64,000 nt of DNA, from contig JARUPZ010000008.1 in assembly GCA_031213475.1 (NCBI GenBank), positions 11,403,938 through 11,467,937 on the forward strand. The letters run 5' to 3'. The position numbers and the translations under genes are program-made. This DNA comes from Nereocystis luetkeana. Its lineage: Eukaryota; Sar; Phaeophyceae; Laminariales; Laminariaceae. How positions within the stretch are numbered: position 1 is the stretch's first letter; the number at the start of each line of letters is the position of its first letter. The notes below the pieces were generated by a model. The model was not told where the DNA came from. It was given only the letters and a program-made list of their open reading frames with translations, and ran no database searches. Shown one piece after another: positions 7,928 through 62,629 of this stretch.

Positions 7928-9394
7928 GGATGGGCGTGGGTTTCGTTTGGGCTACGGTATATAGAAATTTCCGTGCTCATCGTCGCTTCTCACCCATGTC
8001 CAAATTGTACGTGCTCGAGGCTGCGAAAGTGTTATTGTTCTCGAGAGGAGTTCGTACCGCGTAATCTCTTCCAAGTTGTTTTAGCGATGCCAGCTCTGGG
8101 ATTGTTTGGGGGAAGGCGTGGGTGTGCGTTCCAGCGTGATGAGACGACCGTGATTTGTTTTGGCGCTAGGCGTGGCGCGCTTGGGAGCGTTAGTTGTTTT
8201 GTGCGTTACCCTTCGTTTTGAGTTGAGGTAGACCCACAAGGTTTGGTCTGGTCGACGCATTGAAAACCGCTTCGCTTCATGATTGCTCGGTTTACGTATC
8301 AACATACGGTAGCGTCTTTGTTTCATGTTGGTCCAAGGGTTTCAGTTCCCGACAGTTCATACAGGACCATCACTGGGTGCGTCATAGCTGCAGATCACTA
8401 GAGGTCGTTCTGCGGAGGAAACGAGCGTGACGACTGGCAGCGTCGCATCGAAGTTTCCGGCAGTGTACAAATGTGTTGAAGTACGAGCGAATGCAAGTTT
8501 CTAACATACACGACGCCACGATGTAGGGGCTCATGTGGAGGTGGCTGGAGTCGGCTTCTGCGACCGAGTTTCCTGCGACCGTCGACCGAGATTTTATTTA
8601 TAGTGTGCGATTCTCTATCTTCTCCAAATTAACCAGCCCGACACAAGTTGACGCTGCGCGAGTTCCTTTTAATAGGATCATACCTGGTATACTATATGAT
8701 AATACATATGCTGTTTGCGCAAGGGTGCGACAGAGTTCTTGTGTCGGAAGAGCAAACCACTCGCGGGAAGCCACATGCCGATGTTGTTTCGACAGGCGTC
8801 GTTAATGAACGAACACCCCTGCGCAACAAAATCTCGAGGATCTGGTCCGTGCAATGTGCAAACACTAGCTTTTTGTTTCCCTATCAACTTCGTGAACACG
8901 TCTTTTGCTACTACTCCTAAATGTCTTGAAGCCCATCACTGGTTGTGCTATACCAGGCATTATTCTGACAGCCCACGGTTTGGCGGTTTCAGCCGCAGAC
9001 TAGGAACACGCCTCAAACGTTCCTGTTGAGCTACGAATGTCTGCCAACAGGTAGGTGATGGCAGCAGTAGTGTAGTTTGTGTACCGCGACATTCCCGACG
9101 GAGGAGGACTAAACCTTGAGTGGTTGTTAGCAAATACCTGAATTTTCACTTAACTGGCATTTTTAGCGGGCTCTCGCGTGGGGCGTCTGGTGCGGATGCT
9201 AAGATACGCCAGACAGCCTTCAGGAGGCGAACACTATTGGCCTGTCGAGTTTGACCGACTTGTTATATGAGCTTTCTTTAGGTCAAAAGGGCTACCGCGT
9301 GGAGTGTGCTCCGAGGCCGGTTGTGGTTGTTGTCGGTAGTGTCCAAGACGTCAAGACAAGACCAAAAGGCGGGCGGGGAGAGAGTGTGCGTGAA

Positions 9395-9438
9395 GCATGC
9401 TTGCCACAGTTCCGAAGCATGCTTGCCACAGTTCCGCA
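9395..9438 (+). repeat. 22-bp direct duplication
   Basis: Two adjacent copies of a 22-bp unit (core gcatgcttgccacagttccg), the second starting 22 bp after the first. It is a short tandem duplication with no associated gene. Confidence 0.8.
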
Positions 9439-12400
9439 CAAGACTAGCTAAAGCACGGAGACCTTATACAGCAATAGAGAATTCCGACGATCAGTGACCC
9501 TCGTTCGTCCGCATGTCGGTGTCTTTTTTTGGTGATCCTGAAAGTCTGATCTATCCATCCATCTACAGCTGGAAACTTCACTTGACCGCCCCTCGTATCT
9601 ACTGCCGTCAATCGGCGTTTGATATACAGCACCGCTTACCCACTTTACGAGTAGCTCCTGTTGGTGCTGATGTGGCCTACTTAGAACAGGTGGCTATTTT
9701 GTATGACGATCAGCGCGACTCGGTTCACTACTGGCGAAAGCTGTGTACCAGGTAACAAACTTGCTATCCTTAACACTTCCCCTCGATAGAGGTAACATGG
9801 TAAAATCATCTACAAGGTATATTCATTTGTGAAGTTAGAACACCTCGTAAACTGGGTCCAATGTGCTGTGTTGCTTGGCATACCTACTGAAAGCGACAAC
9901 CGTTACTGCAGAAACTTTCGTGTTTACTCATCCGTGCATCCCGTTACCATTTCACTACAAAGTGTCACGATGCACTCCTTGGCCGAGAGGACTTACAACA
10001 GAAGTGCCGTTCCTGTTTCGCGTTCGGCAAAACTCCGACGCATAATACCCTAGTAACGTAAAGACATTTTCCTTCTGTGACAGACTTAAGGCACTGGTAA
10101 GCACGATAACCTCGAAACATTACAGGTACACCTGGAAACTCGTTAGGATCATTGACGTACACGCAAGGGTTCCGCATGGATGCATGCCGGCATCTCGTAC
10201 TTCGGGTGTGGCACGGCATTTTCTCGGCTTATTAGATTCGATATGATTGTTGGCAGTAAAGACATGAACAGGTACATGTACAATATAGGAATATAAGCAA
10301 ACGTGGTACGTAAATGGTCACTGCGAATATCATATTTCGGTGGTGCCAAGAGTAGTGTTGGTTCGCGCTGCTCATAGTTGTGACACACATTTTGTTACTT
10401 TTCTCCCGACAATTGTCTCGTACATATTTCAGTCTCGATCCTATCCATATACTTCCATACTGCAGCATCTCTTCGATGATTCGACCGCCATCAGTGCCCC
10501 AGCTTTGCTTTGAAGAAGACTCCTCGTTACACCTCCATTCATTACGTGCGTGTAAACTCTCGTACCATACTCCCAGTCAACGTTCCATCCCCACGTTCCT
10601 GTCAGCAGCACCGCGGTTCCTTCCCTCGATCCCCTAGCGGCCTGGCGGCGTCTCAGTGCAAGAATATAACGGTGCAACCATCGTAAAATCGCCGCTAGGG
10701 TGGTGCCTGGGATGACATGAAAAAAACGTCCCTTGGATACACCGTTTCTCAACTAGCGACGATCCATCCGTGCTACAAAGATGCTTGTCGGTACCTGATT
10801 GATCCGGTCGCTGCCTTCACGAGGCGCCCACATCTCTCAGCCGCAAGGGTGGTGAGCCTATAGCTGCGCTAAATGAAGGTCACTTCTCCCTGCCGAGCGC
10901 AGTGGCTGAGTTCGCGTGAACTACGTATAGAAGCAGCAAACTCGTCTTGATCAGCGCTTCCTCCCCGCAAGTGGACCATCGCTTGTCGGTTTGCATACCT
11001 AACGCCGAGTAGTACCTTGTTGCGATACTTCAATACCATGGCATCGCGACCCTCGTTTGACGGCATTCCCCTTGGGCGTCGAAGAGAGCTCCGCTTTTCG
11101 TTTCAATGACGGATCGACACCCACTTCCAAGTGCGGGAGAGCGCGTGTGTCACGGGCTGGTGCTGGTTCTTCTGTGTTCCCGATCGATCGCATAAATAAT
11201 GCGTGCCTCGTCTTCACATCATGTCCCCCTCGGACGGGGAACCTTACCACCAGAAACCCCTCTATCTCCAGAACGTGGCGCCGAGTAGACATGGACTCTG
11301 AAGCTGGAATGACCCTCGATGAGTCGACGGGTCTAGTCTCGAAGACTGCGGGGCCTCGATTGAATTCGTTACCGGAACATGGCTAATGTTCTCGTCTTCC
11401 TTCTCCCCGTGTGGGTCGCCCGAGCTCGGCTTGGGTTTCGTGTCCGGGAGCTGGTCCAGAGAAGAAGCAACGTGCCCATCAAACGCACCCGAATCACCAG
11501 CTGATGCAGGCCACTGTGGGGGTGCTATATACGCGACACAAAAATGTGTCAGAACAAGCAACATACGCTCATCCCGAGTGAACACTACCATGCTCTACAT
11601 AGTACACGATTACCGCGTCATTATGCGACGCACCTTCTTGACTACGGTAAACCCCGAGCAGCCTTCCAACGACATCCGCTCTATCTATATCCTCGGAGGC
11701 GGAGCCCCTCCAAACGGAAGTGTTTTTGGCTGAAACGTGCCAGGCCCAATACAGTGCTTTACCGAAGCTGGTAGCTGTGGCGTTTTGTACCGGTAGTACG
11801 TTCGCAATCGACAGCCTTGGGGAACCTTACCCTCCTGCTCGGCTGCTCGAAAGGCTCTGTCCAGCCGGGCTTTTGGCACAAGCTTTGTCGTCGCTTCTTC
11901 CGGAATCCCGCGCACGTCGCGGCAGTCGCTGGCGGTTCTACAAATGCGGCGGATGAGGTCCAAGTCGGCAAGCCCTGTCCAGACTTTCTCCCCTCACCCG
12001 TTGGAGAGATCAGTAGGAACCTCTGGTACCGTCACCCCACCATGTTTTTGAAGGATACTGACATCTTCGGTGCTTCAGCCGACTACAGCGCGAACCCTAT
12101 TGCCTCCCCCGTACTTCAGGCACAAGAGTAACCTACGAAGAGAGTAGCGCGTTCCGTAGATCGGGTCCAGCCTCTGCCCTTTCATCTGGTATGATGATAG
12201 CCTGCTACAGGCAGTGACTTTGTGTGTGTTCGTTGAAAGCGGAACGCGCAGTGGATATATTTCGGTCCAGCGTTACCCTTACCTAGTATGGTAAGTATGA
12301 TACCATCCTGCCGCACCCACGCGGGGACGACGCATACAAGGCCTCCTGTCGGTTTGTATCCTGTGACCCGTACACAGTAGGTGACGTGATAGTTTCTCTC

Positions 12401-15400
12401 GCGGTAAATGCGTGCGATATGGTCTCGTGTTGTTGGCAGCGACTCACTGACCAACCTTCTGTAGCCTGGGTATGTTTCATTCGGCCCGAATATGTTGTTT
12501 ACGTTGCTTCAGCTCTTGCCGAGCACGATGCTGGTACGTCTGTGCTAGTTGTGTCCGATGCAGTGTTGCGAAGTCTCTGGGGGTCAGTAATATGCTTACG
12601 ACGTCGCATAATTTTCCAGTCGTTTGTGGTTCCACGTGGTACACATGGCCAGGCATGGCATGTTCAAAGCGGTCGTTCTGATACACGCGAATGGGGACGA
12701 TGTTTTTCCCCTCCCTTGTCCAGGCTGGTGCATGGATAAGGGTATAACCACTTCGATGTTTCCTCAATATGTGCTTAATCTCCTTCTTGCGCAACCGTGC
12801 CGAGTCCAAATGTTCTTTTCCAAACGAGGTGGATTAGAAAGTTCGACACCAGCTATGCGAGGTAAGAACAGGAGCATCCGTGCACGGCAGCACCAACTAT
12901 GACCGGAACGTGATTGTGCCTTACTTTGGGTTTGCTAACGCCGATAAGGATAGAGGTGAGTTTACGCCCAGGATACAAAAGTGTCAGCGCTGACAATAGG
13001 TTTTGTCCGGTTAGCGTACGTTGGGTACGGTTGACTGTATTTTAATGTGCCTTTGGTTTGGCTGCACTTGTAAAAAGTATGAGGCCAGGTAAACACCGCG
13101 TTCAACGTATCCTTGCTGATTTCGGCTTGCCCCCCCCTCTCCGAGTGGGGCGCCAACATCTTGCAAGCGAGTGTGCTAGTGTCGTGGCGAGTCCGATTGG
13201 CTCGCGACGTTCAGCCGAACGGTACAGCTATTGTAGCAGGTGTTGATTGGATGCAGGAGAGTTGGACCCCCCGACAGGGAGGTTTCATTGGCCCCTGGTA
13301 CCGTCGCTACTGGCGCGCGCATGCGGTTGTCTTGCGGTCGAATGCCTCGAGTGACTTTATGGGTGTCTTGATTCGGAGATTCGAGGCAAAGTTTCGTATG
13401 TGGTGGTGCCTTGACTCCGACGATAGTGTGCCCTCACGTTCAAACACGCAGAAAAAGGAGACGAACGGTCGACAAGCGTGCTTGAGCTGCTGGGCCTGAT
13501 GGTAACGACGTGAATGCTCGTCACGCAGTTGAATGTAGTGCCTAGTCGCACGCTGAACTACTATGATGCGATCGGATTCATATCCGCCGCATAGTGGTCA
13601 AAGTCGTGCCATGGGAGGCAGTTACTCACATCTCTGACCCCAAGGAGTCTTGTGGACTTACAGTTTGAGGCGTTTCACGCGGCGGGAGTTTCTAGTGCCA
13701 CTGCTGGAGGTGCTTCTCCACGGAATGGCGGCAATTTCGAACATATAGGCTCCACGCATTCCAGGTCGACGCTGCCTAGTACCTGGTAGGCATGAAATGG
13801 CCTTAGAACAAGCGGGGGCCGAGCTGTGCTTATAATGCTTGGCGTCCAGCTCGCCGTTGCGCCTTAATTTCAAAGAGAAGCTCATGTATCACCTTCACCA
13901 TCGTGGGATTTCTGTTCGAGGTATTCCGATGTTGGGGAGTGTGGCAGAATCGACACTGAAAATATCCTGGGAGTTCCTTGAGTGTGCAGCTTGGTGTTCT
14001 GCGCCAGATGTCAACCAAGCCAGCAGCCGAGCTACAATCCCGTCGATATCTTGAAATGTAGTCGCTGACGCTTCCGCCGCTGGCTAGACATTCTCTTCAG
14101 GGTACAGGTGCCCCACCAGAAGATGAAGAAGACACGCCCGCGATAATATCTCATAGGATACATTTTTCACCCCTTCGTGAGGCCCGGGCTGCCGAGCGCT
14201 GTTATATTTTCTCGCGTTGGGTTACTCTTTTGTTTAACGAGGTTGAACGAGATGATCGCCTTCTCGATCAGAACCGTGCACCGCTTGACCTTTGGGACAA
14301 GAGAGATGTTGCATGTCGTTTCACGGGGGAGCGGCAGCCGAGTATCTCGGTGCAGTGGCAGGATGCCAATGCCTTCAGAGAACGAATGTTTTCGAGATAC
14401 CACATAGTCGACCGGGCCTCACAGGGGTCGTTTTGATCGTTTGCATACGTGACGACGCCTCGCGAGGGGGCGGGTGTTCCGGGATATCTGGTAGGCGTGA
14501 ACGGCGGTGCACGGTCATTCTATGGTACAGGAGGCATACATAGTTGTTTCTCAGGCTCTTAACATGAGGAGTTTTACAACTATTCCAAAAACTGACTTTC
14601 CGTAAGATAAATGGCAAGCGTACCACAACGCAAATAAACTATCAGTAAAACGCGAACGTGCTTGAAAACGTCCTGGTGGGTAGGTGTTCATCTTCCGCTT
14701 ATGAGGAACTGTCGACAGACAGAAATAGTTCGGCCCTCAACCGTTTCCCCTTTTGCCTCAGTATGCCTATGGAGTCGGGGTTGCGGCGGGGCTCCGGTGG
14801 AGTTATCGGGCAGTATCACGCCCTCTGTATCGTCTCATCGGTATTGTGGTGACAAAGTTCGGGTGTCGGACTACCCCGAGGTCCTCGGAGCCAGTCCGTG
14901 GCAGAGAAGAACGCGGGAAATGGCACCCCGTGAAGTTGCCCTGCGTCCATTCCGCAGCGGTCGGGGGGAGCTCTACCATAACGGGGAAGTCATATATAGG
15001 ATAGGTAGAAACGTTCCGAGTCACGTATGGTGCAGTTGAGTCAGGGCCTACACCCGACCGATAGTGCGCGAACACTATTAATAGCAGCGACAGTCAGGCC
15101 AGGATAGTGTATGGATGGGTCTAACATCGCAAATATCGAGGCAATCTCGGAATAGGACACTCTCAAAGGGTTACCATCATTAGAGGCCTTGGTAGTCAGG
15201 GACACCAGCACGTCTTGTTAGGGCCTTGACCAGTTGAATATACGGAGGAAACTCCAGGGTGCTGGCGTGAAGCACAGGAGACAGGGGTATAGCTGCCGGT
15301 GTCGCGATTCTCCTACATTGCAGGCGGAGTCGGAGTCCCTTCGCAGCGTCGTCGTGGACAATAAAAACATAGTCCTATTTCGATTGATGCACAGTATAAG

Positions 15401-17400: not shown

Positions 17401-17580
17401 AAACACATTGGTTTCCGGGAGAAAGGAGAACGAAGCAGAGATAGTGACGAAAAAACGAACGCTCGATCAGGGGTCGGTGGAGTAGGAAACCGGAACGCTC
17501 GACTTCAAGAGATTATTATATCAACCAAGCGCTGGGTAGGGGCTTATCCCACCACTCAGAATGTTATCGTTGGTGCCCTA

Positions 17581-17699
17581 TTGCGGGGGACCATAGTTAA
17601 TAGGACCTACCTGGTATGGTATACATAAAAACCTACCAGGTATATCTTTACTTTTTTTACCAACAAATATTTGGCCCTATTAAATATGGTCCCCCGTAA
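17581..17699 (+). mobile_element. MITE family 1, copy 1 (TA-flanked, two internal TACCWGGTA insertions)
   Basis: Terminal inverted repeats TT(A/G)CGGGGGACCATA... / ...TATGGTCCCCCGTAA are flanked by TA on both sides (17579-17580 and 17700-17701), as expected for Tc1/mariner-type target duplication. There is no coding capacity. Compared with the other copies it has TACCTGGTA at 17608-17616 and TACCAGGTA at 17634-17642 at positions where sister copies carry TA or a shorter variant. Confidence 0.85.
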
Positions 17700-17701
17700 T
17701 A

Positions 17702-18324
17702 GTAGGGCGAACTGAGCCCAGAGAGAGGTAAACTGTACTCATTTCGTTCGTATGTATGTAACAGGTAACCTCTGACGCCTTACTGTAGCTATCAACAGTT
17801 ATGCGAGGTAGACCATTGATACAAACATTACGGACTGGATTCACGTTTCACGAGCAAAGAAAGTATCCAGTACAGTAACTGAGTCACAGCGGTGACTATC
17901 CAGCTCACTCAATGGCCCATTGAATCACACATCATAGAGGTCCATCTTATTTGTTTTTGTTGAGCAGGCTCGACCAGGTTGTCCAACTGCCCTGTTTCTC
18001 ATCACGCGATCTACTATATAGTACTGCGTAAGGCATCATACCCAGCATCATACACCAAGCATGACGTTCCTTACCCATGGGCCTACGGTAAGGAGCGCTG
18101 GGTTCTGCCAGGGGCTCTATCGGTGTTCCGTTTTCAGCGCTCGTTTTCTCGACAACGGTGAGGGTGCTAAAATCGAAGGTAATAATAATATCGTCGGAAG
18201 GCTCTTGGGCAGATCGTTTCGAAACCAATGTTGCCCGATGTTGGCAACCATTCCTTGTTGGAAATATGGGCCTTGAAATCCAATCGCTACCTTTGGGGTA
18301 AGTCGGCGCTCTCAGCGGTTGCTA
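17702..18324. other. Spacer between two MITEs, nothing recognised
   Basis: About 620 bp with no gene, RNA or repeat recognised beyond short inverted segments related to cactcaatgg/ccattgagtg (17895-17915 and 17302-17315). Confidence 0.5.
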
Positions 18325-18440
18325 CTACGAGGGGCCGTAGTTAATAGGACCAAATATAGTAAGTAAAAATGGTTTATTTAATAGGTAGGTTTTTATGTAT
18401 GCCATAGATAGGTCCTATTATTAGCTATGGTCCCCCGTAA
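18325..18440 (-). mobile_element. MITE family 1, copy 2
   Basis: Same family as 17581-17699 but in reverse orientation; the right terminus TGGTCCCCCGTAA is intact and the left one is mutated (CTACGAGGGGCC). It is flanked by TA at 18323-18324 and 18441-18442. Read on the minus strand, the internal sites corresponding to the insertions in copy 1 read TATCTA and TACCTA. Confidence 0.85.
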
Positions 18441-18806
18441 TAGCGTAGCGAGTCTCTTCCGAAGAAGCTCTCGCGAGTCTGCTTGTTTCGTGCTTTGAAT
18501 TACCACGTCTAGCCCTTCGTACCTGGTATTTCGCAGATTGTCCTCGGAAGGGTTTCGTTTCATTTTGGTTCACTCATCACTTTGACGAGTACCGAGAGTT
18601 TTCATCCTGAACGGTCTTCTGGACAGTCTGGGGTCACAGATGTGTACCCCCTTCCCCACCCCTCCCCCTCTGTACTACTTGCCGTCATGCTTGCCTCGCA
18701 AAGGGATCAACGCTAGCATCGCTCGCCTATTTTCTTCGTTTTTCTGCTGTGTACAACTCACGCTCTCGCGCATTCATTCATCAACACGACAAACGGCGAA
18801 GAAGAG
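18441..18806. other. Spacer, nothing recognised
   Basis: No gene or repeat recognised apart from one TACCTGGTA palindrome at 18520-18528. Confidence 0.5.
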
Positions 18807-20140: not shown

Positions 20141-20414
20141 GTAAAGCCCCATACCTGGTACGAAATAAGTTGGAAAGAAAAAGTGATTAACAAAGATAAT
20201 ACATGTCATGAATAACAACCGGGACAATTCGTTTCCGTTTCCCAACTAACTCTCAAACCCACGACATAATTTTTCGAGCCCAAGATGTTCGACGATTGAC
20301 AACAATCGACTTTTGTATGGTGGTATGGTTTCCCGTGCTTTTCACGGGAACTTCACGGACTATCTAAGGACTGTCCCCGGACTGTCCATACAAGCCCCGA
20401 GAACAGTCCACGGA

Positions 20415-21599: not shown

Positions 21600-23695
21600 A
21601 AATAGTGTATGTCACTAAAACGTTTTCGCCGGACGCTGGAATCAGCTCGTAACCACTCTCAACCAAGGTATCCAGCTCCGCAACACAACTCGTATCTTGC
21701 TCCAGGCATGCGACAATGATTGATGCCGGTAGAAACATAGGCCACCACGCTCTCCAACACCAGCATGAACGGTGCGAGCCCTGCCGAAACCTCGGCCGCT
21801 TTCAGAAGAGCATAGGCCGCGACGGGGGGTCCGCGACAACTTTCGTGCTCCCATTTTCGGGATGGAATCGCGTGGAAGAGACTGAAAACCGCGTTTGCGA
21901 ATGAGCAGGAGGTAATTGCCGCAGACGCGCATGAGCACATGCGTATACTGAAGAGTACGTCGCTGAATCGGCGAGGCTCCTAGCAAACCAGTGAGGGGTC
22001 TACAAGTACCTGACGAATAGGGTAAAGGAAGAAGTGAAACCATGCAAGAAGCGAGCGATATAGTAGCTAATCAGTTTGGATTGACAAACCTGGACTCAGC
22101 CGAAACTGCAGTACTCCATACTACCGATATATAAATGCCCGTTCTTAAGCTTGTTTAAAGTTGTTGCTGTTGCAGTGCGGCTTCGAGCTTTGCTCATATT
22201 TCTGAGCGTACTTATTATTTCCCCACCCATACTGCTGCTGTACATTTGTCAACGGCCCGCAACTCCATATATATGGCGTGACTCCTCTAGGGTTTCAATT
22301 CTTCTTCCGGGACACCTACTTATTCCCACGGAGACCCATCGCTTACTCTACACCTCTACACGGCAACACTTTGGCTTGATACTTTCTTCACAGAATGGAC
22401 AGAAAATTGCCCCCCCCTTCTGGATCCTAAGCTTCTACGGCGCACATATATATTCCTGATCAGCATAATCTATCTTTTTTTTCCGCGTGGGCACCACATC
22501 ATGGGCAGTGATCGAGGAAAGGTTTTCTGGGTTGGGCATGTGTTAACGTATCCTGCACAGAAAATATTAAGGGAAGGGTAGGACCCAGACGATAGTGATC
22601 AAAGTCGTAGATCGGCGGTCATTGGGGCGGAGCAGCCAATTATTTTTCCTAGTACCTGGTATATGTAAATTTCGGATACGATATAGACAAAGTACTCCCC
22701 ACTACACCCAGGCGGATCACGGCCGTACGCGCTTAACCTTCTTGCGTCTTCTCTTTTTGCTGGACGCCGGCGGTATTATTTCATACCTCTACCAGGTATA
22801 GGTCACATCAGTTCCAAGGTTTCGATGGAGCCGGGTTTCGGGTTTTTTACGCCTCCAGACAGATTTTAGACTACGGATTTCTAACGTACGTCTAAAGGCT
22901 ACTAACTCATTCAAGGGCAGATCTTGTTCATATGCCTTGTGTATAGTATTAACATGCCCCCATCGTAGCGTTTGGTACACCACATGGCCGCCAGTGTGCA
23001 GTATCGACAGCCTCCAGGTCGCACCGTCAGAATAACCACCCTCGTAGCCCGTGGTAGCCTGAAACGCCAGGCTGCTGGGGAGCCATCCCACGGTAGGGGC
23101 GAACCAGAAGTTCCTGAGCCCCTAATCCTTCGGAGCGCAATATCTCACCCGATAAAGTACTTGGCAAAAACTCGTTCGTGCCGCCCGACCGGCACCCGTA
23201 TACGCTATAGTCCTAAAACGAATGTAGGAGGAAAAATGTTCATCCTCACTGGTAGTTCTTCACTCAAGGAACTCAATTGGTCAGAAACCTTTGTCCCACA
23301 AAGTGCAACCCCTACCGTGGGGTGACTCTGGGGCTTGAATTGTTATCCTACTTTCCGTAGAGAAAACCCACTATGCTAAACACTGTACTGATATTATGGC
23401 ATGATTTTTTGTTGTTACTTCGGTTGTTACTACAGTAGTGTTGTTGTCCTTGTTTTTGCGGAGGGTGGTGGTGGTGATGCTGAGGGTGGTCCGACGTTGT
23501 TATTGCTGTGGTTGTTTTTGTTGGCGTCTTTCTACCTCTCGAATCGCGGTCCTGGGTGTTTGGGCCGTGTATGATAGAAGCGCCTAATGCCTCTGGTTCC
23601 GTTGCTGCTCTGCCATTTTACTGGGCCTTCAAAAACGCATGGCCCACACGCCCCCTTCAGTTTAACCATTTTTTGCGTCGTTCCACTGCTCACCG
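21600..23695. other. Gene-poor region upstream of the protease gene
   Basis: No coding exon recognised. It contains TACCWGGTA palindromes at 22653 and 22790. Promoter elements of the downstream gene could not be identified. Confidence 0.45.
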
Positions 23696-26600: not shown

Positions 26601-28924
26601 TATCGAAATCGGATCTATTTCGTGGGGCCATCCGTGTCGCGCTACACTCTGATGAACGAGGTTTCACAAACCTTGTCGTTTTGTCATGCAGGCTTTTATG
26701 CGATTCCCGAGTTGTCGTGGTCTTGGCAGGGATGGTGAAACATTAAATGGCGGCCAATCCGACCGCTGGGGTACCAAGGTTTGGCTCAGTATGTTCCGAC
26801 CGGTTGAACGCCTCAAGCGAAACACTATTCGAAAACCGACCAGTCTGACGGTTTCACAACACTGTCTCAAGCGAGTTACTGTTCGAATACCGACTAGTCT
26901 GATGGTTTCACAACACTGTCTCTAGCGAGTTACTGTTCGAATACCGACTAGTCTGATGGTTTCACAACACTGTCTCAAGCGAGTTACTGTTCGAATACCG
27001 ACTAGTCTGATGGTTTCACAACACTGTCTCAAGTGAGTTACTGTTCGAATACCGACTAGTCTGATGGTTTCACAACACTGTCTCAAGCGAGTTACTGTTC
27101 GAATACCGACTTGTCTGATGGTTTCACAACACTGTCTCAAGCGAGTTACTGTTCGAATACCGACTAGTCTGATGGTTTCACAGCACTGTTTTGTTGGTTG
27201 AGAACTAGCCCACCGCATCATTTTCGGGTTGTGCTGTGCCAACCGTGTTCTTCGGAGTAATGTTTCGGGCGATACACTGACCTCCCCGAACAAGGAGCTC
27301 ATACACGTACGCGTAAATAGCACCCCTACCGTGAAATATCTGGCCCATCAACCAGTGTGACGCTGCCGCCTTCCAGAATGTTTCAAAGTCCCGTTGGTGT
27401 TCATTGCCCCCAATTCCGTGTCGACAGTCTGACACTGCGTCTACGTCAGTCTGTTGGTTGTGTAGCCACAGGGCTTGCTCAAGGGCAATACCTCGCACCC
27501 CATTTACCCGCATTTGCCCGCAGTAGTCGACCGCGCAACACAACATCCGGAGGAGCGCAACCTCCTTTAACATCACCGAATCGGCATGGTGGGAGTTAAA
27601 CCGTTTCTGAACCCATCAATCTCGACTGCAGAACCAATTGGGAAGCGTGCAGCACTTGCGAGGAAGACAGTGACCCCGAGTGGGCATGCCCCGCGGCTGC
27701 AGCTGTCTACAACGATCTGTTGGGAGCTTTGCCAGGCACAGCAGCCAACATCGTCGAGGTGGAAGGCGGGGCTGGTGAGAGGCAGGGCAATACTCATATT
27801 CACTGCAACAGGTGGTAGGCACACAACTTTAGTCACACGTGGTCGAAGTTTATTCAGGACAGGAGAGCACGAGTAGAGATCATGCTTGTTGCGCTGATTC
27901 GGTGAGAGACCGGTCGCCAGTCGCTAACAATGCAGACGCAACCAGGAAGGCGAAGCTCCAGTTTTTTTTTCACAACGACTGTATTATTGCGGAGAAGGAT
28001 CGTGGCGCTTGCAATACGCTCTCTCGCTTGCACCCATGTTCGCAATTTTCAGTTCGAGGGTTTCTACCAGAGTATAAGACGTTACTGCCTTGGTGACGAA
28101 CCGATAGATGCCCACAGTTACACATGCCCAGGGTAGAAGTAGTCGTTTCAACGTCGACCGGTACAAAAAATTATCTGACGTTTCGCCGCCCGCACATCGA
28201 GGCATTCATGATAAGATTCCGCACTACTGTAAACACGACCACACAGGTACACGCTGCGGACATTGGTCCGAGGATATCTTTAACGACGAAACCATGACGG
28301 GCAGTGGGGAATGGGTGAGAGCCACTCGGTACAGCTTCCCTGCATCATGGACCGCACGTCCACCTGATGCCGTGCTTTGATTTAGCGATGTCCTGCCTTT
28401 ACCAGCTCAACTCGAGAGGCGATCACCAAATCAAAAGTATACATAGTTCCCTAAAAGTCACCATCTCTGCTCGTCCAGTGCGCCCCAAACCCTGTACAAC
28501 CCCTCACTACAAAGTTTCGTCAATGCTGCTGTTGTTCTTGCTGTCGTTGTCGTCGTTAGTGGTGGTGATGGTGATGGTGTTCATATCGTTTTCGTTCGGA
28601 CTACGTACTACAACTTATCTCCAACATTTAATTGTACTCCTTGATCACGTAACAGGCTCTTTCACCACCGCAAAACGCCCTAGAACAAACAATACTGATG
28701 CGGCCTCGAGCGAACGATTGTTGTGGCGGTCGCCTATGTTACACTCCGCAACCCTATTGATGCTGAATAACGCGTGTACGTGTGTGCGGATATTGTTCTG
28801 CCTGAAACATGAACAGGGTAGACCCGAGCCTCTGTCGAAGCTCACGGTAGCATCTCTGGAAGACATCGGGTACATTGTCGACCCCAGCATGGTGAGCGTG
28901 AGTAGCCTCAGTCGTAGGTTTTGA
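23696..28924 (+). CDS. Secreted EGF / leishmanolysin-like (peptidase M8) zinc metalloprotease, seven exons
   Basis: Exons 23696-24323, 25193-25312 (or from 25184), 25654-25738, 26285-26569, 27653-27774, 28247-28314 and 28817-28924 all join in phase with GT-AG introns, giving about 470 residues. The first Met (23696) or the one at 23729 precedes a hydrophobic RRLAAVLLN stretch that could be a signal peptide. Exon 1 encodes a Cys-containing N-terminal module; exon 2 is a six-cysteine EGF-like domain (CNPNPCNTGTC...CSC...GMSC). Exons 3-7 match the family used in leishmanolysin-like proteases: ADRWERVI, IDGVGGRLG, FDADDMA, the zinc site HEMAHVIGVG, then CGHWSED supplying the likely third His, ETMTG as the Met turn, and LSKLTVASLEDIGY near the end. 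It probably cleaves extracellular proteins; the substrate is unknown. All catalytic residues I can check are present. Confidence 0.88.
26819..27189. repeat. 54-bp minisatellite in the protease-gene intron
   Basis: About seven units, with the gagttactgttcgaatacc motif recurring at 26873, 26927, 26981, 27035, 27089 and 27143 (exact 54-bp spacing); the leading unit is degenerate. It lies wholly inside intron 26570-27652. Because 54 is a multiple of three, a spurious 18-residue repeat frame stays open on the minus strand. Confidence 0.95.
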
Positions 28925-30301: not shown

Positions 30302-32269
30302 GTACGCCTCTGAATGGGGGTTGAAAACTCTGCTTTGAGACACCGGGCCGCAGGTTTTCTTGGAGGCAGTATGCTCGTCACGTTTGAGGCGCACCGCTCT
30401 ACAACATGTACAGAGTACATTTCTAGTTTTCTAGTTTTTACAGCACAGTGTACCATACACCTTGTGCGAACGGGCGGTAGGAATGCCGGAAAGATTCGGC
30501 GGGTGGCGGAAGGCGGGAAAAATGGTATATACTCTTTCGCAACAAAATCTAGCTAAAATACGGTTCTGACGGACCGGGGGGTTTCTCATCTGAGGACCTA
30601 CCCAGCAATGCATGCCTCATCCTTTGAAACCCCACTTTAGACTTACGATTCTCCCCGTCATATCTCTACCACTACTGCTGTAAAAAGCGACACACCCATG
30701 ATACGCATTAATTATCGTACTCTTTAACAGCAGAGCAACACATTGTTAATTTATTTTTCTTTCCATTCATGACATTCGCCCATTCGCCCTTCGTTCCTCC
30801 CTGCCCAGTATAGCAGTATTAATAGTCGCAACTCAGACCCGGGGATGCGCAGCGGACTCTCCCCCCCCCCCCCCCCCCCCCCCCTCCCCACTACGGTTCG
30901 TGTTTTCTGCATATCTATCACGAGAAATCCACCTCTTCCCTCGTTAACTTGCGTCGAATTTCACGTTGGTCGATGATGTTTTCTTACATTAACTCTGGAA
31001 TGAAGGAATCCGTGATCACGTCGTTGTTGTTCTCACGTGAACTCTGAAATCAAGGAATACGTTCAGGTGCTGCAACCCTCCTGTGGACATCCGAAACACC
31101 ACGAAAATGCAACTCTCGGCAGAGAAGCGCGACGCTTCTCACCTAAAAATACACGAAACGAAGTACGGGCACACTACGAGTACATGAGCGAGAGAATGTT
31201 TGCAAATGTGCATACTGAACTAACATGGCCGCGGGTGTCCACTCAACTACAGCAAAGGGTTATCCCCGTTCCCACAACAAGTGGACAATGACTTCAGCGG
31301 TTGCTGCCTGGAGTGCTGCCTGCATCGTACGAACCGAACGGTAGTCGTGAACATCGAGAGGAGCACGCCTGCTGTTTGGGGTGCTATCAGAGTGACGACT
31401 CGCGGACATGGAGTGAACAAGAGCAATTCAAAACCTGATAGAATAAACACCATACGAATATCGACGATCGCAATGTCTTCCCGGACTGGCTGAAAAAAGG
31501 TGCAGCACAGCTGTGAAACCACGCCCCTGATAATTGCCAGGGCCGTTCCCCATGAAGGGTATACAACCCGATAAAGGTGCAACAACCATTGGCGTAAATA
31601 ACAGGTACCTGCGATTGACCAGCCTTACATGATACTCGTTTTTTGGCTTGAAAAGGGACAGATACACTTGCATTTACTAATATCATACTTCGTCTACAAC
31701 AGTAGTAACTACTCACAGATGGTTTCGCCCAATTGTGGCTGCTCTCCCTCCCCCCTATACCCCTACACGGATGCCCCCATTTTCGCCTATGTGCGTTTTT
31801 ATGGTGAACGCCCCTCCACTTCATTTGTCGCATCACCACACTAGGATCCGTCACATCGATATACACACATTACATGCAGTAGTCACTTGTGTACAGCATC
31901 ATGGACACACGCGGAATTCAAGATTTCGTCTGCCCCACGCCGCGTCGGAATGGGCTCAGCTTTTTGGCACGGCGGAGCAACCTGTGCCCCTGTGTGCGAG
32001 AGGTCGCTCGAGGATGGCCGAGACTACAACGCTGGCGGCAAGGGCGGGCGCCGGCAGAAGGTTTTGTTTTGCTCTGGCGCGCCCACGTGGCGAGAAATCG
32101 TTGAGCCAAAAATGTCCCTCGCCCCCCCGCCCCGCTCGCTACTCCAAAGCATGCTACACTCTACAGCAGTGCGAATGAGTGGAATCACGAAAAAAAAAAC
32201 AGAGCATACCCGTATCACACACAAAGTACAACGTGTGAATATTTTGGAGGCAGCACGCTGACCGTTCAG
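30302..32269. other. Gene-poor stretch
   Basis: No gene recognised. It contains a dispersed repeat at 30740-30965 with a run of 24 C at 30861-30884. Frames at 31387-31866 (minus) and 31735-32178 (plus) are unremarkable. Confidence 0.45.
30740..30965 (+). repeat. Dispersed repeat with poly-C run
   Basis: Second copy of the sequence at 20415-20620. The C-rich stretch has expanded here to 24 uninterrupted C (30861-30884). Confidence 0.5.
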
Positions 32270-32520: not shown

Positions 32521-32964
32521 AAACATATATCATGGTATAAACCTCCGCGTGCCACTGAAAAAAGTATCAGAAAGTAAGGTAGATATACACTCGGTTGTAC
32601 GATAACTACCGAAAAAATACCTGTTTAAATCCTCGTAGACATCTCCATCCCGTCACCATCGAAATAAAAAGGGTGGGTGGGTGTGAGAATTTACGAACTA
32701 CCCGATCCAGCGAGCGACCGCTGTCCAGCAGCTAGCAACAGCCCTGTCTGGTTGCGTGTTCTACAGCAGCACCGTTCCGTGCGGAATCCACTTGGTACTC
32801 CCACCAGCGTGATCAACCAAAACAATACCAGCTGCTGCTATCAAAGTGACCTACGTACTATTAATACCAATACGTACTCGGCCGAAGAATATGAACCATA
32901 ATGCCTAGTTCTCTCTACAACAACAAACTGCAGATTATGATCATATCGGTTCCCGATCTCTAAT

Positions 32965-42794: not shown

Positions 42795-43883
42795 CCACAT
42801 CTAAGGCATGTTCTGGGGAGCGGAGCCGAATGCGGAACACCTGTGATCAATTTCCGAAGCTTGTCCATAGATCTCCTAGCGTTCACATCATGCAGGGGAG
42901 CTCGAAAACATTTGTGCCGCAAAACGGCCGAACGACCGAACGAACGTTTGTGCCCCAAAAACAGCCTGGACAACATCCCAACACAGGACAGACTCAATGT
43001 CTATCGCACGTTTTAGTCCAACGAGCCAAACAACGGCACGAAGCGCGACCGTGTCAATCCTTCAAGGTCAACAAAACCGAAGCAAGTATCCGTTTCTCAC
43101 CTTGGCGATTTTGACGCAGTACCCCCCCACGGCCTCCATCGTGCTCACCCCTGCGTCGTCAGGTGTTTGCCGTTCATTGCACAAACGCAACAGAGTCAAT
43201 AATTATACCGGAAAGGTACTGTATATCAGAGGTACACTGTATACGATATTGTTTGATCGCTGGCAATCGAGGGGGACAACCTATTTATTTAACGACACGG
43301 CGAGATCTACCTGGCCTGGCACTAGTTTGTACGGCTATTTTTTTACAATTTATAGAATGCGGCAACTACGAGCATGCCCATACGTTATTGGAAGCTGCTT
43401 ATGTTTAGGGTCAAAACGAGGTGCCCAAACGACTACACCTAGATCGTCCAGTTTGATTGGTCACCGCCTGGTCTCGAATTCCACCTGGACCTGACGCCAT
43501 TTGGTACCCTGCTCTAACTTGGTGGCGCAGGAAATCCTCCCGCACGAGACACCGGAGCCCGACAGCGTAAGGCACGAACCGTTATATAATTAGCACGTGG
43601 ACTGCACGTAATTGCTGTGTAGTTCCATGCATTGTGAATAGTCGCGCCCCCAGGTATGCTGAAACGTGTCGTAAGTCGTATATCTAGCAGTGCAGGCAAT
43701 ACACAAAAACACTAATTATTATCATTTGTCTTGCCATCCGACAATGTGCAGCATGATCTTTCAACATTGATCACTCATAACTTTCCCGAATGACGAAAAC
43801 CTAAAAAAAAGGAAAGCTATGCACCAAGTGTAACTCCCTTCTTTGCCAACTATTTTTTTTATACCTGGTACGAATCATGACTA
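42795..43883. other. Intergenic stretch, nothing recognised
   Basis: No gene or RNA recognised. A TACCTGGTA palindrome sits at 43862-43870, 12 bp before the TA that flanks the next MITE. Confidence 0.45.
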
Positions 43884-43992
43884 TTACGGGGGGCCATAGT
43901 TGACAGGACCTACCTATGGTACACATAAAAACCTATATGTTTAACCATTTTTACTAACAATATTTGGCCCTGTTAACTATGACCCCCCGTAA
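43884..43992 (+). mobile_element. MITE family 1, copy 3
   Basis: Termini TTACGGGGGGCCATAG / CTATGACCCCCCGTAA, flanked by TA at 43882-43883 and 43993-43994. Same orientation as copy 1; its internal sites read TACCTA and TATAT instead of the two 9-bp palindromes. Confidence 0.88.
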
Positions 43993-43994
43993 TA

Positions 43995-45267
43995 CTATCA
44001 GTCCCTGACCAAATCACGACGGCATCGGGCGTACAACTGGCTGTAGTGCTCATTATCTTGGACATGTGGTGGTCTATACCGTGCCTATTAAAAACTCCGG
44101 AAAAACAAATGAATATATGTGCTTTAGCGCACATGTATAACCTATAGATTTGAGTGTGACCAATATTACGATGGCATTCACATACGTACACAGTTGGTGG
44201 TTTTTGAAGCTAGGATAGACGCCAAACAACTCAAATCTCGATAGAAAAACGATTACCCAGGAAACAAGAGTACAACGTAATCGTAGTCAAGTCAATCCCG
44301 TTTTTTTGTTGGTATCCGCAACTCGATTGGCAGGCGGGACCATAGTTCACCGCAGAAAAGAGACGCGGGCTTTCCTTTGACTGAAGTATGCACTGCCGGA
44401 TTTGTTGTTCGCCTGCAAGCAAATCAACGACCTCGATACCTTCGGACTACTGCAGGTATGCGCATGACTGCAGTGCCCTGTTTTTTTTTTCTGTCTTTTT
44501 CCTGCGTTGGGCATATGGTATATCAGGTATACATCTGGTTCCTCGCCTCAACATGGGTGTTTCCTGAGGTCATCTTCGTACTTCGCTGCATGTTTATGCG
44601 AGAAATTGTGAGGGAACTTCTTGTGTGTACTCAGGCTGGGAGTAGGCCGTGCCCACGCCTTTAACCTGAGCCCTACTACAACAGGATTGGAAATTATAGT
44701 TGCGGGCTAACGCGTCTTGCTCGGGTACCCACAGCATTGCCGTTCTTAAGGGCCTGCCCTTATCTCTCGGACTCTGTGACATACATAGCGAATACATGCA
44801 GAGTGAGAATGAAACTAGGGTTGCTCAACGTTTCCCCCTGTATCGGGTAATTCTCGTCTGCGACATGTTTTATCCCGCCCGCTGTGGGCCTACAAAATGT
44901 ATCGACGACGTATTGTAGTGCACAAGGGGATATCCGCTTCGCACGCAGCTTTTCCCGCACAACAAGCAATCGTAAACCAAGTATAATACTGTCGCTTCGA
45001 TAGGGAGGTTCTCGCTCGTGGTACAGCGAGCACTGGTGCAGTGAGCACTGTATGTACTGTACGGGCTTCACGAGAGTTGCGCACAACCCGTCAACACTGC
45101 ACGGCCACGCGCATGAGCTGGTTGATCAGGAACTCCACCTACTGTACCCCCACTACTGAAGTCCGTTGCAGCTACAACAAACAGTAGTACCGCAACTACA
45201 GTTCTCTTACTGCTACTACCACAGCAGCTACTTATTACTGCTACTACTACTACTACTACCCCCACTA
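43995..45267. other. Intergenic stretch with a trinucleotide-rich end
   Basis: No gene recognised. From about 45160 to 45265 the sequence is dominated by tac/cta triplets (ctactactac). Confidence 0.45.
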
Positions 45268-45372
45268 TTACGGAGGAACATAGCAAATAGGACCAAATAT
45301 TGTCAGTGAAAAGAGGTGAATGTGTAAATGTTTGTGTGTAACGTAGGTCCTATTAACTATGGCCCCCCGTAT
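45268..45372 (-). mobile_element. MITE family 1, copy 4
   Basis: More diverged copy, with termini TTACGGAGGAAC and GGCCCCCCGTAT. It is flanked by TA at 45266-45267 and 45373-45374 and has inserted next to a ctactac-rich tract. Confidence 0.8.
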
Positions 45373-45374
45373 TA

Positions 45375-46740
45375 CTGCTGCTGCTACAAATAAATGTAGT
45401 CCTTCCACTATCAACACAACAGCTCTATAATACAATTTAGTATCACACTAACTACTGCAATATAGAGTACCACTCTTGGACTACGGCCCTACTGCCTGCA
45501 TCGCTACTTCCTCCGTACCACTTTCGCTAACTACTACTACTACTGCTAATACTACTATTTCCACGTGTCCATGATGACTCTCACCCGGCGCGTCCCTGAT
45601 GCCAGAGTGCCCTCCTCCGGAAACGTCAAGAGCTCTAAGCGCCGAGAGGGACCGCCGGTGTTTCCGCCGATCTCCCTTTCTTTACGATCGTCCTGAAACT
45701 TGTTCTACCAAGGAGATCTCGCAGGTTTCAGCACCTCCACCTCACACCGCCGTACTTTTAGCCGTTTCGATTGTCTTCTATACACCACTTTTATATACCA
45801 GGTATGCTATACCCAGTTTCCAGACGAACACGTGGGGATAAAATGCCGCCCCATAAATATCTCTTCTAAGAAAGCCGCGTCCTAAAGCGGGTGCTGTCCC
45901 GCCTTTCGACCTTCCAGACGAGAGCGTGTATCTCGCGTGGCGCTCGAAACCCAAGGTATGGAGCGCGCGAGCATGGTCGGAACCGCACGCTCTTCTTTCG
46001 AGAAGGAGAGGCGACCAGAACAGTCCATCCAATGGTGTGTGGATCTTGTGAGGGCCTGTGCTTGACGCCGCGGTCGCTCTGCTCTCACTCGAACTGTCAT
46101 GATATGTCTAGCCCCGCCCAGCTTGCTCGCGACATATGTTCAACACAGACGATTGAGGTGTATAGGGGACGGGGCCTCGACGGTGATTACGATCTAGGAT
46201 GTTCCTAATTTGAGGGTAGTGCGGGCAACACATAATACAAGAGTGAACAAAGGCTGGCCGGCGGAGACAGATCTTCCCTGCGATAACATGAACGTGTACG
46301 TAAAAATATTCGTAGTTCAGGGTAAACGGGCGCGACACAAAACGTAAAGAACAGTGGCACGCGGGACGGAGGCTGTCGTAGCTCTTTTCTAACTATGTAC
46401 CAACGCTTTCGGCAAGAAAATACTTGAAAATGATGGTGGGACGACGTTGCAATGCACGTGTAGGGTGCGGGTTACGTACCAAGCAAACACATCTAGGGTG
46501 AAGTAACTGCTGCAGTGTTTTAAACGATTGTGTACCTCATAGGTTTCGTTTCGTGTTTCCTCCAGTTTTGTGACTAGATAGTCTAGGGGCGTTTCATGTT
46601 CGTTTGAGTTTTCACGTCAAACTGTCCCTATATCGCCGTTCCGAGTGAGGTGTTGTTGGGATATATATGTGCTGCAGTGCTGGTGTTGTACTCCAGCGTC
46701 GGAACGTAACTAACAGTGATACCTTTTTGTGGCAAAACTA
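45375..46740. other. Intergenic stretch, no supported gene
   Basis: Several 70-105 codon frames near 45600-46340 on both strands lack domains. One TACCAGGTA palindrome lies at 45796-45804. Confidence 0.45.
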
Positions 46741-46845
46741 TTACGGGGGACCATAGTTAATAGGACCAAACATTGTTAGTAAAAATGCATAAATATATCG
46801 GTTTTTATGTTTACCATAGGTCCTATTAACTATGGTCCCCCGTAA
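46741..46845 (-). mobile_element. MITE family 1, copy 5 (near-consensus)
   Basis: Best-preserved copy: perfect inverted termini TTACGGGGGACCATAGTTAA at both ends and TA flanks at 46739-46740 and 46846-46847, 105 bp. On the minus strand the first internal site reads GGACC-TA-TGGTA, without the 9-bp palindrome. Confidence 0.92.
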
Positions 46846-47065
46846 TAGTCTATTTCCTGTATTATACCTTGTGTATACGAATGTCGGTTTCGCCATCCTA
46901 CCGTCAACATAACAGTTCAACAAAAATATAGAGCTCAACCGTGGCATCGAGGACTTCCTCGAAACCTGTTTTTGGAAGCTAGCTGTGTGATACTACTTAC
47001 TGCTGTGATGTTCCACCGCCCTTCCTTGCTACGTGCTCGTTTCGACGCCAGGCATTGAGCATCTG

Positions 47066-47212: not shown

Positions 47213-47311
47213 TATATTATGTACATACCAGGTATCACATAAAGAGGGTTACAGGGTAGCAGGTAGTGAGCAGGAAGATATAAAACAACACAACACAAAG
47301 AGTGGTCTGAA

Positions 47312-48021: not shown

Positions 48022-48351
48022 CTTTAACAATCTGGGAGAAGGGATCTTCAGGTTGGTAGGCTGTTCGGATGTTTTGGTTCCTGTTGGGATCAAGGCACGG
48101 GCGAAGACCCGACCCAACCCCTTACTCTAACCCTAACCCTAACCCTAACCCTAACCCTGACCCCAAACCGCAGCCGAAACGGGCCGAAACTCGCCATAAA
48201 CGAGGCTACGCCGAGTTTGCATCGGACCAGGAAGTTTCTCAGATGCCGACGACGATTCCGAAGTGCAGACCACGCTACACATTTTTCAAGTAAAAAACAT
48301 CCCTAAAGATCCCTTCTCCCAGACTGCTAAACCTACTCGGGCTAAACCAGG
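48022..48351 (+). mobile_element. Inverted-repeat element containing interstitial telomeric repeats
   Basis: The left arm has aatctgggagaagggatctt and the right arm its inverse, aagatcccttctcccagact, ending ctaaacctac. Between them lies (CCCTAA)n at about 48126-48158, then a unique ~180-bp segment. The right half (48166-48347) matches the reverse complement of 63791-63966. This is therefore a repeat unit that carries telomere sequence, not a simple chromosome end. Confidence 0.75.
48126..48162 (-). repeat. Interstitial telomeric repeat (TTAGGG type)
   Basis: About five clean CCCTAA units followed by ccctgacccc, reading as the C-rich strand on plus. It lies inside the inverted-repeat element at 48022-48351. 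Confidence 0.95.
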
Positions 48352-54212: not shown

Positions 54213-54661
54213 TCGAAAATGCAACACGATGGTCTCGGGTTACAACGAATACCAGGTAAAACACACGAAGACAGTGCTGCTCTAACGATATTGGGTAGCG
54301 TTCCTCGTGGGAGTTAAGGAGCCACGGCAGTCAGAAACAGTTAATCAAAACAGAGTCCTTCGCCTGGCGTAGCGGGCGTCGGAGATGTCTGAGGAAAGGG
54401 CAGCCCAGCAACGCAGGCGGTGCTACGATATCTATGGCAGAAGGTCTTGATGATGAGTCCAGCCAGGCGTAGCGCGAACGTCGACATCCAATAGCAGTTG
54501 ATTGACGCCATCATTACGTTATCACCCATAGTTCTGGTGATCACCTCCTTTTACTCTTCTAACCGCTTGCAAAGAACGTTGTTCTGTTCTGCTTCATGAC
54601 GATGCACCAAGGAGACGGCCCGCGCCCCCGCCACCGTTATTAGGGACGACCACTACGATTT
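54213..54661. other. Region 3' of the beta-helix gene
   Basis: No gene recognised; one TACCAGGTA palindrome at 54250-54258. It presumably includes the 3' untranslated region of the minus-strand gene. Confidence 0.4.
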
Positions 54662-60447: not shown

Positions 60448-62629
60448 CTTAGGTACTGGTCGATATCCACGCATGCCGCTCTGCGAGTTCGTATCCGCGC
60501 GGTCAGTCACGTACAGGGGGGGTGTCGGGGACAGAAGGCGTGGAATCGCCTCAAAAAAAATAGTTACGTCAATATGTTACGTGTCAAACGTCAATACTGG
60601 CTTGCTGTTGGCTGTACTACTAGGGGCGCGGATCACCCATTCGATCCGCAGGATAAATTGGGAAAACGGCCTGTTACAAACATGGTGTATTCACGTCAGA
60701 AGGAGATAAACTAAAAAAATCAAAGTTACGCACCGCGGGGTACATTCAAAGTACACTGCCCGCTGCTTAAACAGATATATCGAATTATATATATCTTGCA
60801 TGAGATCATATAAAACCTTCAGTAGCATCATCGGAGCATCACACGCAGCTTGCAAAAAATGGGTTCGACGCAGTCCTCGATCTCCCGGCGGGGGTTATTG
60901 ATGTTACGAATAGATGTGCATGATATGATCCACATGTGATATTATTCTATGTATGAAATACATGGTAAACAACAACCTACAGTACAGTACCTGGTGGTGT
61001 ATTTTGAAAGCAGTCACACCCGGAAGTAAACCTCGACCCGGTTGCCCGCATATTTTCCACTCGGTGAGTTTACAGCAGTAAGGACCACTTCTTACCTACT
61101 ACCTGGTACCTGCTACCTCGTATATACACCAGGTACTTACCAGGTGGTGCGTATGACACATATTTCAACAATCAACTATTTTCGCATTTTTCGTATACCG
61201 GTACGTAAGATAAAACCTCAACAAGAACCAGGGTGCTTTTTTTTCGTTGTTTCCTTTCCGGTACGATTTCGAGCTTGAGATTTAATAAAAGAGTAAAAAA
61301 GTATGTCAGCTGTGAGTTCAACCGATCGGCAGAACGATCGATACTCAACTTAGCAAGCTGCGTGAACCGCTCGGGGGTTTTGTAATTTTCAGTCGAAACA
61401 ATAAAGTCATCACCTCATGCAGTCCTCATGTATGTGCAAAATCTGGCCTTTGACGTAATTTGATTAGAAAATCGGATGGCCCAAGTCGTCAATTTTTGGC
61501 CCAAACGCCGACGACTTGGGTCCTCAGATTTTGAACGAAACATGGCATGGTCTCTAAATTCAAGATGCCATTATTCACGACATCAAGCAGCAGCAGCAGC
61601 AGAAGCAGGGCGATCGATGAGTTGGACGATGACACAGTTGTATTGCGACGTTGCATCGCGCGCGGTCGGCGGGCGTCGCGTCTCTCCGTGGCCAGACTAC
61701 ACTCGACTGGCGTGGGCTCGGGCCTAGAGACCACGACAAGCGCACTCGGCGCGCACCTCTCCATACGGCAGCAACAGCAGCAGCATAAGTAGCAGTCAGT
61801 CACATTGTGAAATAAATACGAAAGCATCAAGGCAGGTTGACTCTACTCTAGCACACTCGGCTCGTCTCTCCACCGATAGACTAGAGGCAACCAGCGTTGG
61901 CTCCGACGCTTGGGTCCAACGCGAGGTGCAGCGCACCCAACGCGCCTCTTCCAAGCGCCAGACCACCGCCGAAACAACAACAACAATTCGTCTCGGTGTT
62001 TGCTCGAATCTCTGCATGCACAACAAATCCGACTATTATTCCGCATACATACCGATTGTAACACCGTCTCGATTTTTCGAAGTTAGCAGCCGAAAAAGGG
62101 ATCGGGCCTAAATCTGAAGCTCAACCTCTGAACCGCATACGAAACAGCCTTGGTGTCATTTCCTCGAAAGTTGTGGAGCACATTGAGCGGCGGCGCCCTT
62201 ATAGGGCGTGAGGGATAAGGGCCACAGTAAGGCAAACACTCAGCAATGTTAATGCGCACAAAAGTGCGTTTTCAGGCTTACACACCAATGAACAAGCGTT
62301 CGAGACGAACTACTCGGTCTTGGACTTAATACATGATAGTGGACAATTTAGCGGGAGCATGTGATACGTTGGTTGTTACGGCGCCTAACCTACACATTAC
62401 AGAGGCCACTTAGACGGGAACTCCCTAAAGTAGGGGGCGTGATGGCGACGTATTGTGAATGCGCCTTCGCCCCCCAGGGAAATATTTTCTTCGCGCAAAA
62501 TAACTCAATGCGGCCATACGTTTCAGTACAGAGTAGGGTCTCCACATTGTTCCCTAGTTATTTGGGGATCTAGCGGCGTTATTTCTGGCCACAATAAGAA
62601 ACGCGGTGAGTCTCTCGTCATCGTCTTGA
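60448..62629. other. Region 5' of the beta-helix gene, no exon identified
   Basis: It should hold the first exon and promoter of the minus-strand gene, but none can be fixed. Other content: a cluster of acctggta/accaggta motifs at 61090-61145 (one exact TACCTGGTA at 61100) and agc/gca triplet runs near 61585-61605 and 61768-61788. Confidence 0.4.

Follow-up and report, generated by a model that had tools for sequence, protein, structure and literature searches.

The stretch of Nereocystis luetkeana DNA analysed here (the window; 64,000 nucleotides of GenBank assembly GCA_031213475.1, contig JARUPZ010000008.1, or C8, forward strand, positions 11,403,938 to 11,467,937) contains an exon with a TLDc domain at 6986-7927 (PF07534, 1.3e-25) and fourteen copies of a nine-base palindrome, TACC(A/T)GGTA (TACCNGGTA). 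The first 8.6 kb, TLDc exon included, are free of it. As TACCTGGTA, the palindrome lies at 8681..8689, 13780..13788, 18520..18528, 20152..20160 and 22653..22661, at 43862..43870, immediately outside a miniature inverted-repeat transposable element (MITE), and at 61100..61108, where degenerate relatives (ACCAGGTA, TACCAGG) follow within 50 bp. As TACCAGGTA, it lies at 9746..9754, 22790..22798, 45796..45804, 47226..47234, bordering an AT-rich tract, and 54250..54258. One further copy of each spelling, at 17608..17616 (TACCTGGTA) and 17634..17642 (TACCAGGTA), sits inside a MITE; none of the fourteen is assigned a strand. A sequence-only reading had listed these sites, eight T-centred, six A-centred and none with C or G, and had proposed them as candidate excision footprints. 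The positions and counts hold, and our analysis indicates that the motif is very probably the footprint left by a TA-inserting cut-and-paste transposon with a two-fold-symmetric target.

Dinucleotide shuffling of the window (100 shuffles) gave a mean of 0.86 and a maximum of 4 matches to the motif, in agreement with the earlier estimate of about one chance match. TACC-N-GGTA is the top-ranked odd palindrome of nine bases in the window, the runner-up occurring six times, and a search of the window against Rfam gave no match at the gathering threshold. In the whole assembly (465 Mb in 1,987 contigs) the motif occurs 193,277 times, or once per 2.4 kb, against 3,643 occurrences of the reversed word, so that the enrichment expected genome-wide is indeed found and amounts to 53-fold. 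Forms centred on C or G, whose equal frequency would have counted against the footprint reading, are rare: among the first 100 genomic places listed, every one of them on contig C1, there are 4, and in 264 kb they number 6 of 76. TACCTGGTA and TACCAGGTA, each the reverse complement of the other, are one duplex seen from its two strands, and the split between A and T centres therefore records only orientation. It carries no information on mismatch repair; what is real in the observation is the near absence of C and G.

Comparisons within the genome were made on two samples. The first, of 282 kb, combined the window, 20 stretches of 10 kb (L009-L028) and six of eight 3-kb loci from contig C1 (L001-L008), two overlapping ones being dropped. 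The enlarged sample of 318 kb added L031-L033, three stretches of 10 kb in a part of C1 that is rich in the motif; they were picked for high motif density, so that the densities of this sample are not genome averages. Small loci around transposase matches were also examined. A scan of words of the form TA-X-TA, with X of 2 to 9 nt, returned TACCAGGTA 81 times against 2.7 expected and a second word, TATTAATA, 48 times against 1.6 expected, along with many simple-repeat words. We refer to the palindrome as the class-1 scar and to TATTAATA as the class-2 scar.

Evidence for insertion comes from sister copies of repeats. In the paralog test, each site was compared with all other sampled DNA both in its intact form and as its two flanks with only a TA between them, sites being treated as independent; an empty sister had to carry TA in the 318-kb sample, and in the 282-kb sample TG or GA also counted. 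In the smaller sample a low-complexity filter retained 71 of the 80 sites, and all eight that had a sister were empty-only, six of the sisters with TA and two with TG or GA. The control words TA-N5-TA, of which 872 of 1,024 passed and 117 had a sister, were empty-only in 13 cases, filled-only in 101 and both in 3 (Fisher 1.7e-7). In the enlarged sample a sister was found for 19 of 104 filtered sites: 14 were empty-only, 3 filled-only and 2, a nested pair, both, compared with 14, 200 and 3 of 217 for all other TA-N5-TA words (p 2.7e-11). By our count, the 14 empty-only sites represent 11 repeat loci, with two sites in one MITE and three in one duplicated stretch of L033. Two of the latter three set a double footprint against a single one; the double footprint of this duplication, at 6425/6432 (6425-6440), faces the single one at 7029 in the other copy. 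Several alignments of sites to their sisters show a gap of exactly 7 bp, others longer or shifted gaps. The same test was applied to X of 2 to 8 nt, keeping the best eight words per length. Among the words listed, TACCAGGTA (8) and TATTAATA (6) were empty-only and never filled, and at X = 7 a word beyond those listed could have a few empty sites. In the test on the larger sample (X of 3 to 6, best five words per length) no other listed word had more than four empty-only sites.

The window itself provides two of these cases. The MITE at 17579-17701 carries both internal footprints; the relatives of the first, at 17608, read ...GGACCTATGGTA... with a plain TA (19 sister places with TA and one with TG in the first-sample test), and those of the second, at 17634, read AAAAACCTATAT, again with a plain TA. 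As seen between repeat copies of one genome, the ancestral site of the class-1 scar is TA. The plain TA that the sequence-only reading had anticipated at matching sites of strains or sister species is seen here in repeat copies of the same genome. The scar then would represent a net insertion of 7 bp at a former TA, consisting of CC-W-GG and a duplicated TA. One-mismatch forms of the motif are also in excess, by about 44 over expectation beside the 81 exact copies, which fits neutral scars and would correspond, as a rough figure, to a mean per-base divergence of about 6% if they are neutral.

These observations bear on a quite different explanation, namely that the palindrome is a functional or driven motif, such as a binding site, a methylation site or a gene-conversion driver. 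The precedent is HIP1 of cyanobacteria, likewise a very frequent short palindrome (PMC4390886), and the very high genome-wide copy number of a short palindrome is what would be expected of such a motif. Here, however, sister repeats lack exactly 7 bp and retain TA, so that the palindrome arose by insertion; decayed one-mismatch forms are in excess, and motifs occur in MITEs and in an AT-rich run. Both signs of maintenance that we had ourselves adopted, a lack of variant excess and an ancestral motif, were absent. We regard a HIP1-like origin as very improbable.

The excision reading is further supported by the surroundings of the ancestral TA, which were analysed for 72 of the 81 sites after exclusion of 9 nested ones. 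By preference a purine precedes and a pyrimidine follows the TA, and a further TA is present at -7 and at +7, each time in 19 of the 72 sites, where 4.2 would be expected (p 1.8e-15); this is the strongest offset. The target is two-fold symmetric around the ancestral TA, about TA-N4-R-TA-Y-N4-TA, a symmetry to be expected of a transposase that acts as a dimer. A footprint itself carries a pair of TAs at a spacing of 7 bp and so presents a preferred target, and the occurrence of neighbours at exactly this distance would be in keeping with that. Motifs that share a TA, 7 bp apart (spelled TACCWGGTACCWGGTA where two footprints are nested), account for eight neighbour pairs among the 96 W-centred places listed on C1, three with mixed and five with equal centres, all as raw counts. 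The 282-kb sample contains eight neighbour pairs within 60 bp, two of them at 7 bp, and three footprints within a single AT-rich run (L022 1828-1870).

Such pairs could also be read as microsatellite-like growth, in which TACCWGG units multiply by slippage. Slippage could explain some of the 7-bp pairs, which recur at the exact distance and of which five in eight on C1 are equal-centred. As a source of the motif it is hardly credible, since slippage cannot turn a TA into one unit, and lone units do have paralogs with a plain TA; most sites, moreover, are solitary.

The class-2 scar supplies what the class-1 scar lacks, a likely parent in view. Each of the six TATTAATA sites with a paralog was empty-only, compared with 8 of 370 sites for other TA-N4-TA words, and the result was unchanged in the enlarged sample (6 empty-only, 0 filled); the ancestral site of this scar, too, is TA. 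A search that required TA found 25 ends of TA-flanked MITEs with the inverted repeats TTACGGGGGACCATAGTTAATAGGACC in the sample, and for some of these insertions sister copies show the empty site. The bases that follow the TA at the MITE insertions are G at +1 (20 of 25), T at +2 (17 of 25) and A at +3 (16 of 25). At 43 TATTAATA sites the same three bases reach frequencies of.51,.62 and.67, and TAs in general differ. This common consensus of footprint flanks and MITE insertion sites is an internal positive control.

A larger relative of these MITEs was found at C2:6044017-6048283 (L043 1817 to L042 3583). The one copy examined is 4.27 kb long, has TA at both ends, and carries TTACGGRGG inverted repeats very similar to the MITE ends (TTACGGAGG and TTACGGGGG, then CTCATAATTAGTAGG). 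Between them lie an open frame of 513 amino acids (aa) that matches DDE_3 (2.7e-12) and an upstream exon-like frame. By its sequence, this element is an IS630/Tc1-mariner transposon with a predicted DDE transposase between terminal inverted repeats. A genome search with DDE_1 (PF03184), with an E-value limit of 1, yielded 46 matches; ten of these, including the 4.27-kb element, cover the same profile range in open frames of 437-515 aa and, judged by profile range and frame length and not by alignment, probably form one family. The likely parents of the class-2 scar are present, namely the MITEs with ends TTACGGGGG and the 4.27-kb transposase-bearing element, which we infer to move them.

It is also conceivable that an enzyme adds the five bases directly at a TA, without any resident element, be it a domesticated transposase or integrase or the abortive joining of cleaved transposon tips. 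Such micro-insertion would account for footprints that far outnumber detectable parent ends, and the symmetric target is equally that of a transposase dimer. On the other hand, for TATTAATA the same genome contains full-length elements whose ends and target flanks match, and ordinary insertion and excision thus very likely operate here. Direct micro-insertion is accordingly improbable in our estimation.

Excision of a TA-inserted element would produce both scars in similar ways. For the known Tc1/mariner elements, the excerpts of PMC7827188 consulted describe a staggered cut, 3' overhangs of terminal bases between two TAs, and end joining. Staggered cuts in the kelp would likewise leave bases from the ends of the element behind as 3' tails. 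In class 2, TTA tails would pair through their terminal TA and yield TA-TTAA-TA. In class 1, three-base CCW tails would join with one base mismatched, trimmed or lost, giving CC-W-GG; alternatively, a five-base tail CCWGG could pair with itself around one mismatch and give the same scar. The outermost inverted-repeat bases of the class-1 parent should then read CC(A/T). Each jump would leave one footprint that nothing removes, hence the footprints would pile up and the element itself could be rare or lost.

A different account of the missing parent would be programmed or trans-acting elimination resembling that of ciliate internal eliminated sequences (IES), with scars, in a multicellular alga. 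At some stage of the life cycle, a transposase retained by the host would remove short inserts that lie between TAs and have CC(A/T) at their ends, and would leave the five-base scar. Such scarred elimination, which we hold to be unlikely, would cause the sequenced nucleus to show almost only scars.

Several observations weigh against excision of a class-1 transposon, and most of them concern this parent. In 282 kb we found no convincing paired CCWGG or CCA/CCT inverted ends beside TA; for the TA-flanked elements with CCAGG or CCTGG termini that the sequence-only reading had proposed to search for, there is one ambiguous candidate end, with 26 copies in the genome. With exact footprints set aside, TACCAGG is about as frequent in the 282-kb sample as chance predicts (39 against 37.5 expected). 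TACCTGG shows a mild excess (60 against 37.5, p 4e-4), much of which precedes TG or TT and may consist of decayed footprints. Genome-wide, the target signature combined with a half-site was matched 9,554 times on both strands, fewer than the 33,044 matches of the reversed control, and 193,277 excisions are very many for an element that is not seen. As to the empty sites, all come from repeat copies, some of them satellite-like or AT-rich (L017, L018, L020), and the three filled-only sites belong, by their flanks, apparently to one repeat family. Among 7-bp repeat indels the unrelated word AAGCACC and its rotations are commoner than the motif, with seven loci against four for the motif rotation, which ranks second. 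Around the ancestral TA, weaker enrichment of TA is also seen at further offsets (2, 4, 8, 10 and 14).

The ambiguous end belongs to a repeat that starts TACCTGGAACGAAGGAT(C/T)GTATC. If this is the class-1 parent, as a low-copy, TA-inserting element, which seems to us possible and rather doubtful, it would refine the excision reading and not replace it. The extension CCTGGAACGAAGGAT(C/T)GTATC recurs behind different flanks, with 26 exact genome copies beside TACCTGG, and the mild excess of TACCTGG half-sites is in line with it. Beyond -7 the flanks differ in the five copies shown (of 18 matches), and a TA at -7 and a mostly purine base at -1 fit the footprint target. Nevertheless, positions -7, -6, -5 and -2 are identical in all seven flanks, which goes beyond the footprints' target preference, five share TAT at -7 to -5, and four of the seven were retrieved with a pattern in which both the TA at -7 and the purine at -1 were required. 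The sequence could also be the inner part of a longer repeat. At the one copy examined there is no inverted partner within 3 kb, which adds to the points against a class-1 transposon, and behind this copy lies an apparently different, nested element. L044 possibly contains another element at about 80-1475, whose ends resemble GGGGCATTTCTAACGACA and in which TTGCCAAAATAGCAA motifs recur.

Profile searches of the genome were made for transposases as well. With Transposase_1 (PF01359) two matches fell within an E-value of 1, neither of them over the cut-off, and with DDE_3 (PF13358) not one of 30 candidates reached an E-value of 1e-3, a search that is insensitive, as the transposase frame of the TTAC element does match DDE_3. 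Eight DDE_1 loci of 3.3-3.6 kb, possibly shorter than the elements, showed no convincing TA-flanked inverted ends. Three kinds of candidates were set aside. The best paired ends were unconvincing and proved to be footprints nested in one another, interior parts of MITEs and a palindrome of the TTCTACGATAGAGG type; a 1.25-kb TA-flanked insertion in L031 with a TACAGTACTT... end contained no transposase frame recognised by eye; and TACAGTA, the scar type of Sleeping Beauty, is 1.8-fold enriched and is not claimed as a further scar, its paralogs being 4 empty-only and 7 filled-only, and later 4 and 16. A variant of the class-1 scar with six bases may exist: TACCAGGGTA is spelled by 26 of the 100 listed matches to the target-signature half-site pattern, of which six belong to a single repeat, and a TA sister exists for one TACCAGGGTA site, in L018 around 3780.

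Intron-rich genes and runs of trinucleotides are suggestive of a brown alga. Other features of the window include parts of the class-2 system. Five TTAC-family MITEs were located. The copy at 17579..17701 (plus strand), which holds the two class-1 footprints, has TA at both ends and the left end TTGCGGGGGACCATAGTTAATAGGACC. The copy at 43882..43994 (plus strand; right end placed by eye) retains a plain TA where the 17634 footprint sits. Three lie on the minus strand relative to the 17579 copy: diverged ones at 18323..18442 (left end by eye) and 45266..45374 (both ends by eye), and one at 46739..46847 with intact ends, TA-TTACGGGGGACC ... GGTCCCCCGTAA-TA. TATTAATA is present at 15076..15083 and 30817..30824 as candidate class-2 footprints and at 32859..32866 as a footprint with one plain-TA paralog, all without strand. 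By eye, we also noted a tandem array of roughly 54-bp units (TCTCAAGCGAGTTACTGTTCGAATACCGACTAGTCTGATGGTTTCACAACACTG) at about 26860-27180, and short telomere-like CCCTAA-type tracts inside the contig, at window positions 48125-48160 and 63961-64000, which adjoin opposite-orientation copies of one repeat (about 48,270-48,340 and 63,790-63,870).

Among known systems, the closest to the class-1 scar are the Tc1/mariner elements (IS630; Sleeping Beauty, mariner), which also leave a few terminal bases between two TA copies. They differ in that their overhangs, in the passages of PMC7827188 at hand, are 3 nt long and the scar here is 5 nt (CCWGG), and a count of 193,277 together with the absence of a visible parent has no counterpart in the portions of the literature surveyed. 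The TTAC MITEs resemble Stowaway/mariner MITEs in being about 110 bp long, TA-flanked and inverted-repeat, with a larger transposase-bearing relative, but their ends read TTACGGGGG and not CTCCCTC. Rice Mariner elements share the TA target and, as far as the extract of PMC4423477 goes, leave complex and varied scars, in contrast to the single frequent scar TATTAATA found here. For the brown alga Ectocarpus, the parts of PMC12477816 consulted report 17 Mariner-Tc1 families with about 12,000 copies, mostly non-autonomous, and autonomous members such as a 4.4-kb TcMar; in the main text of that paper the words footprint, excision and palindrom- are absent. Neither scar word occurs as a whole word in the open literature of PubMed Central (PMC), and titles and abstract openings of the brown-algal literature on transposons, footprints and palindromes contain no such report; a claim of first report needs a wider search.

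To our knowledge, work on transposon footprints has mostly dealt with small numbers of them, in marked alleles or in closely related strains. In this kelp, one type of scar is so common that its spelling suffices for counting it, and a second can be linked to an element within the same genome. If the excision reading is correct, scar words of this kind would be a fossil record of past jump numbers, of target preference and of the end sequences of elements that are now rare or gone. They would also mark a mutational force that has placed one 7-bp insertion in about every 2.4 kb of the genome.

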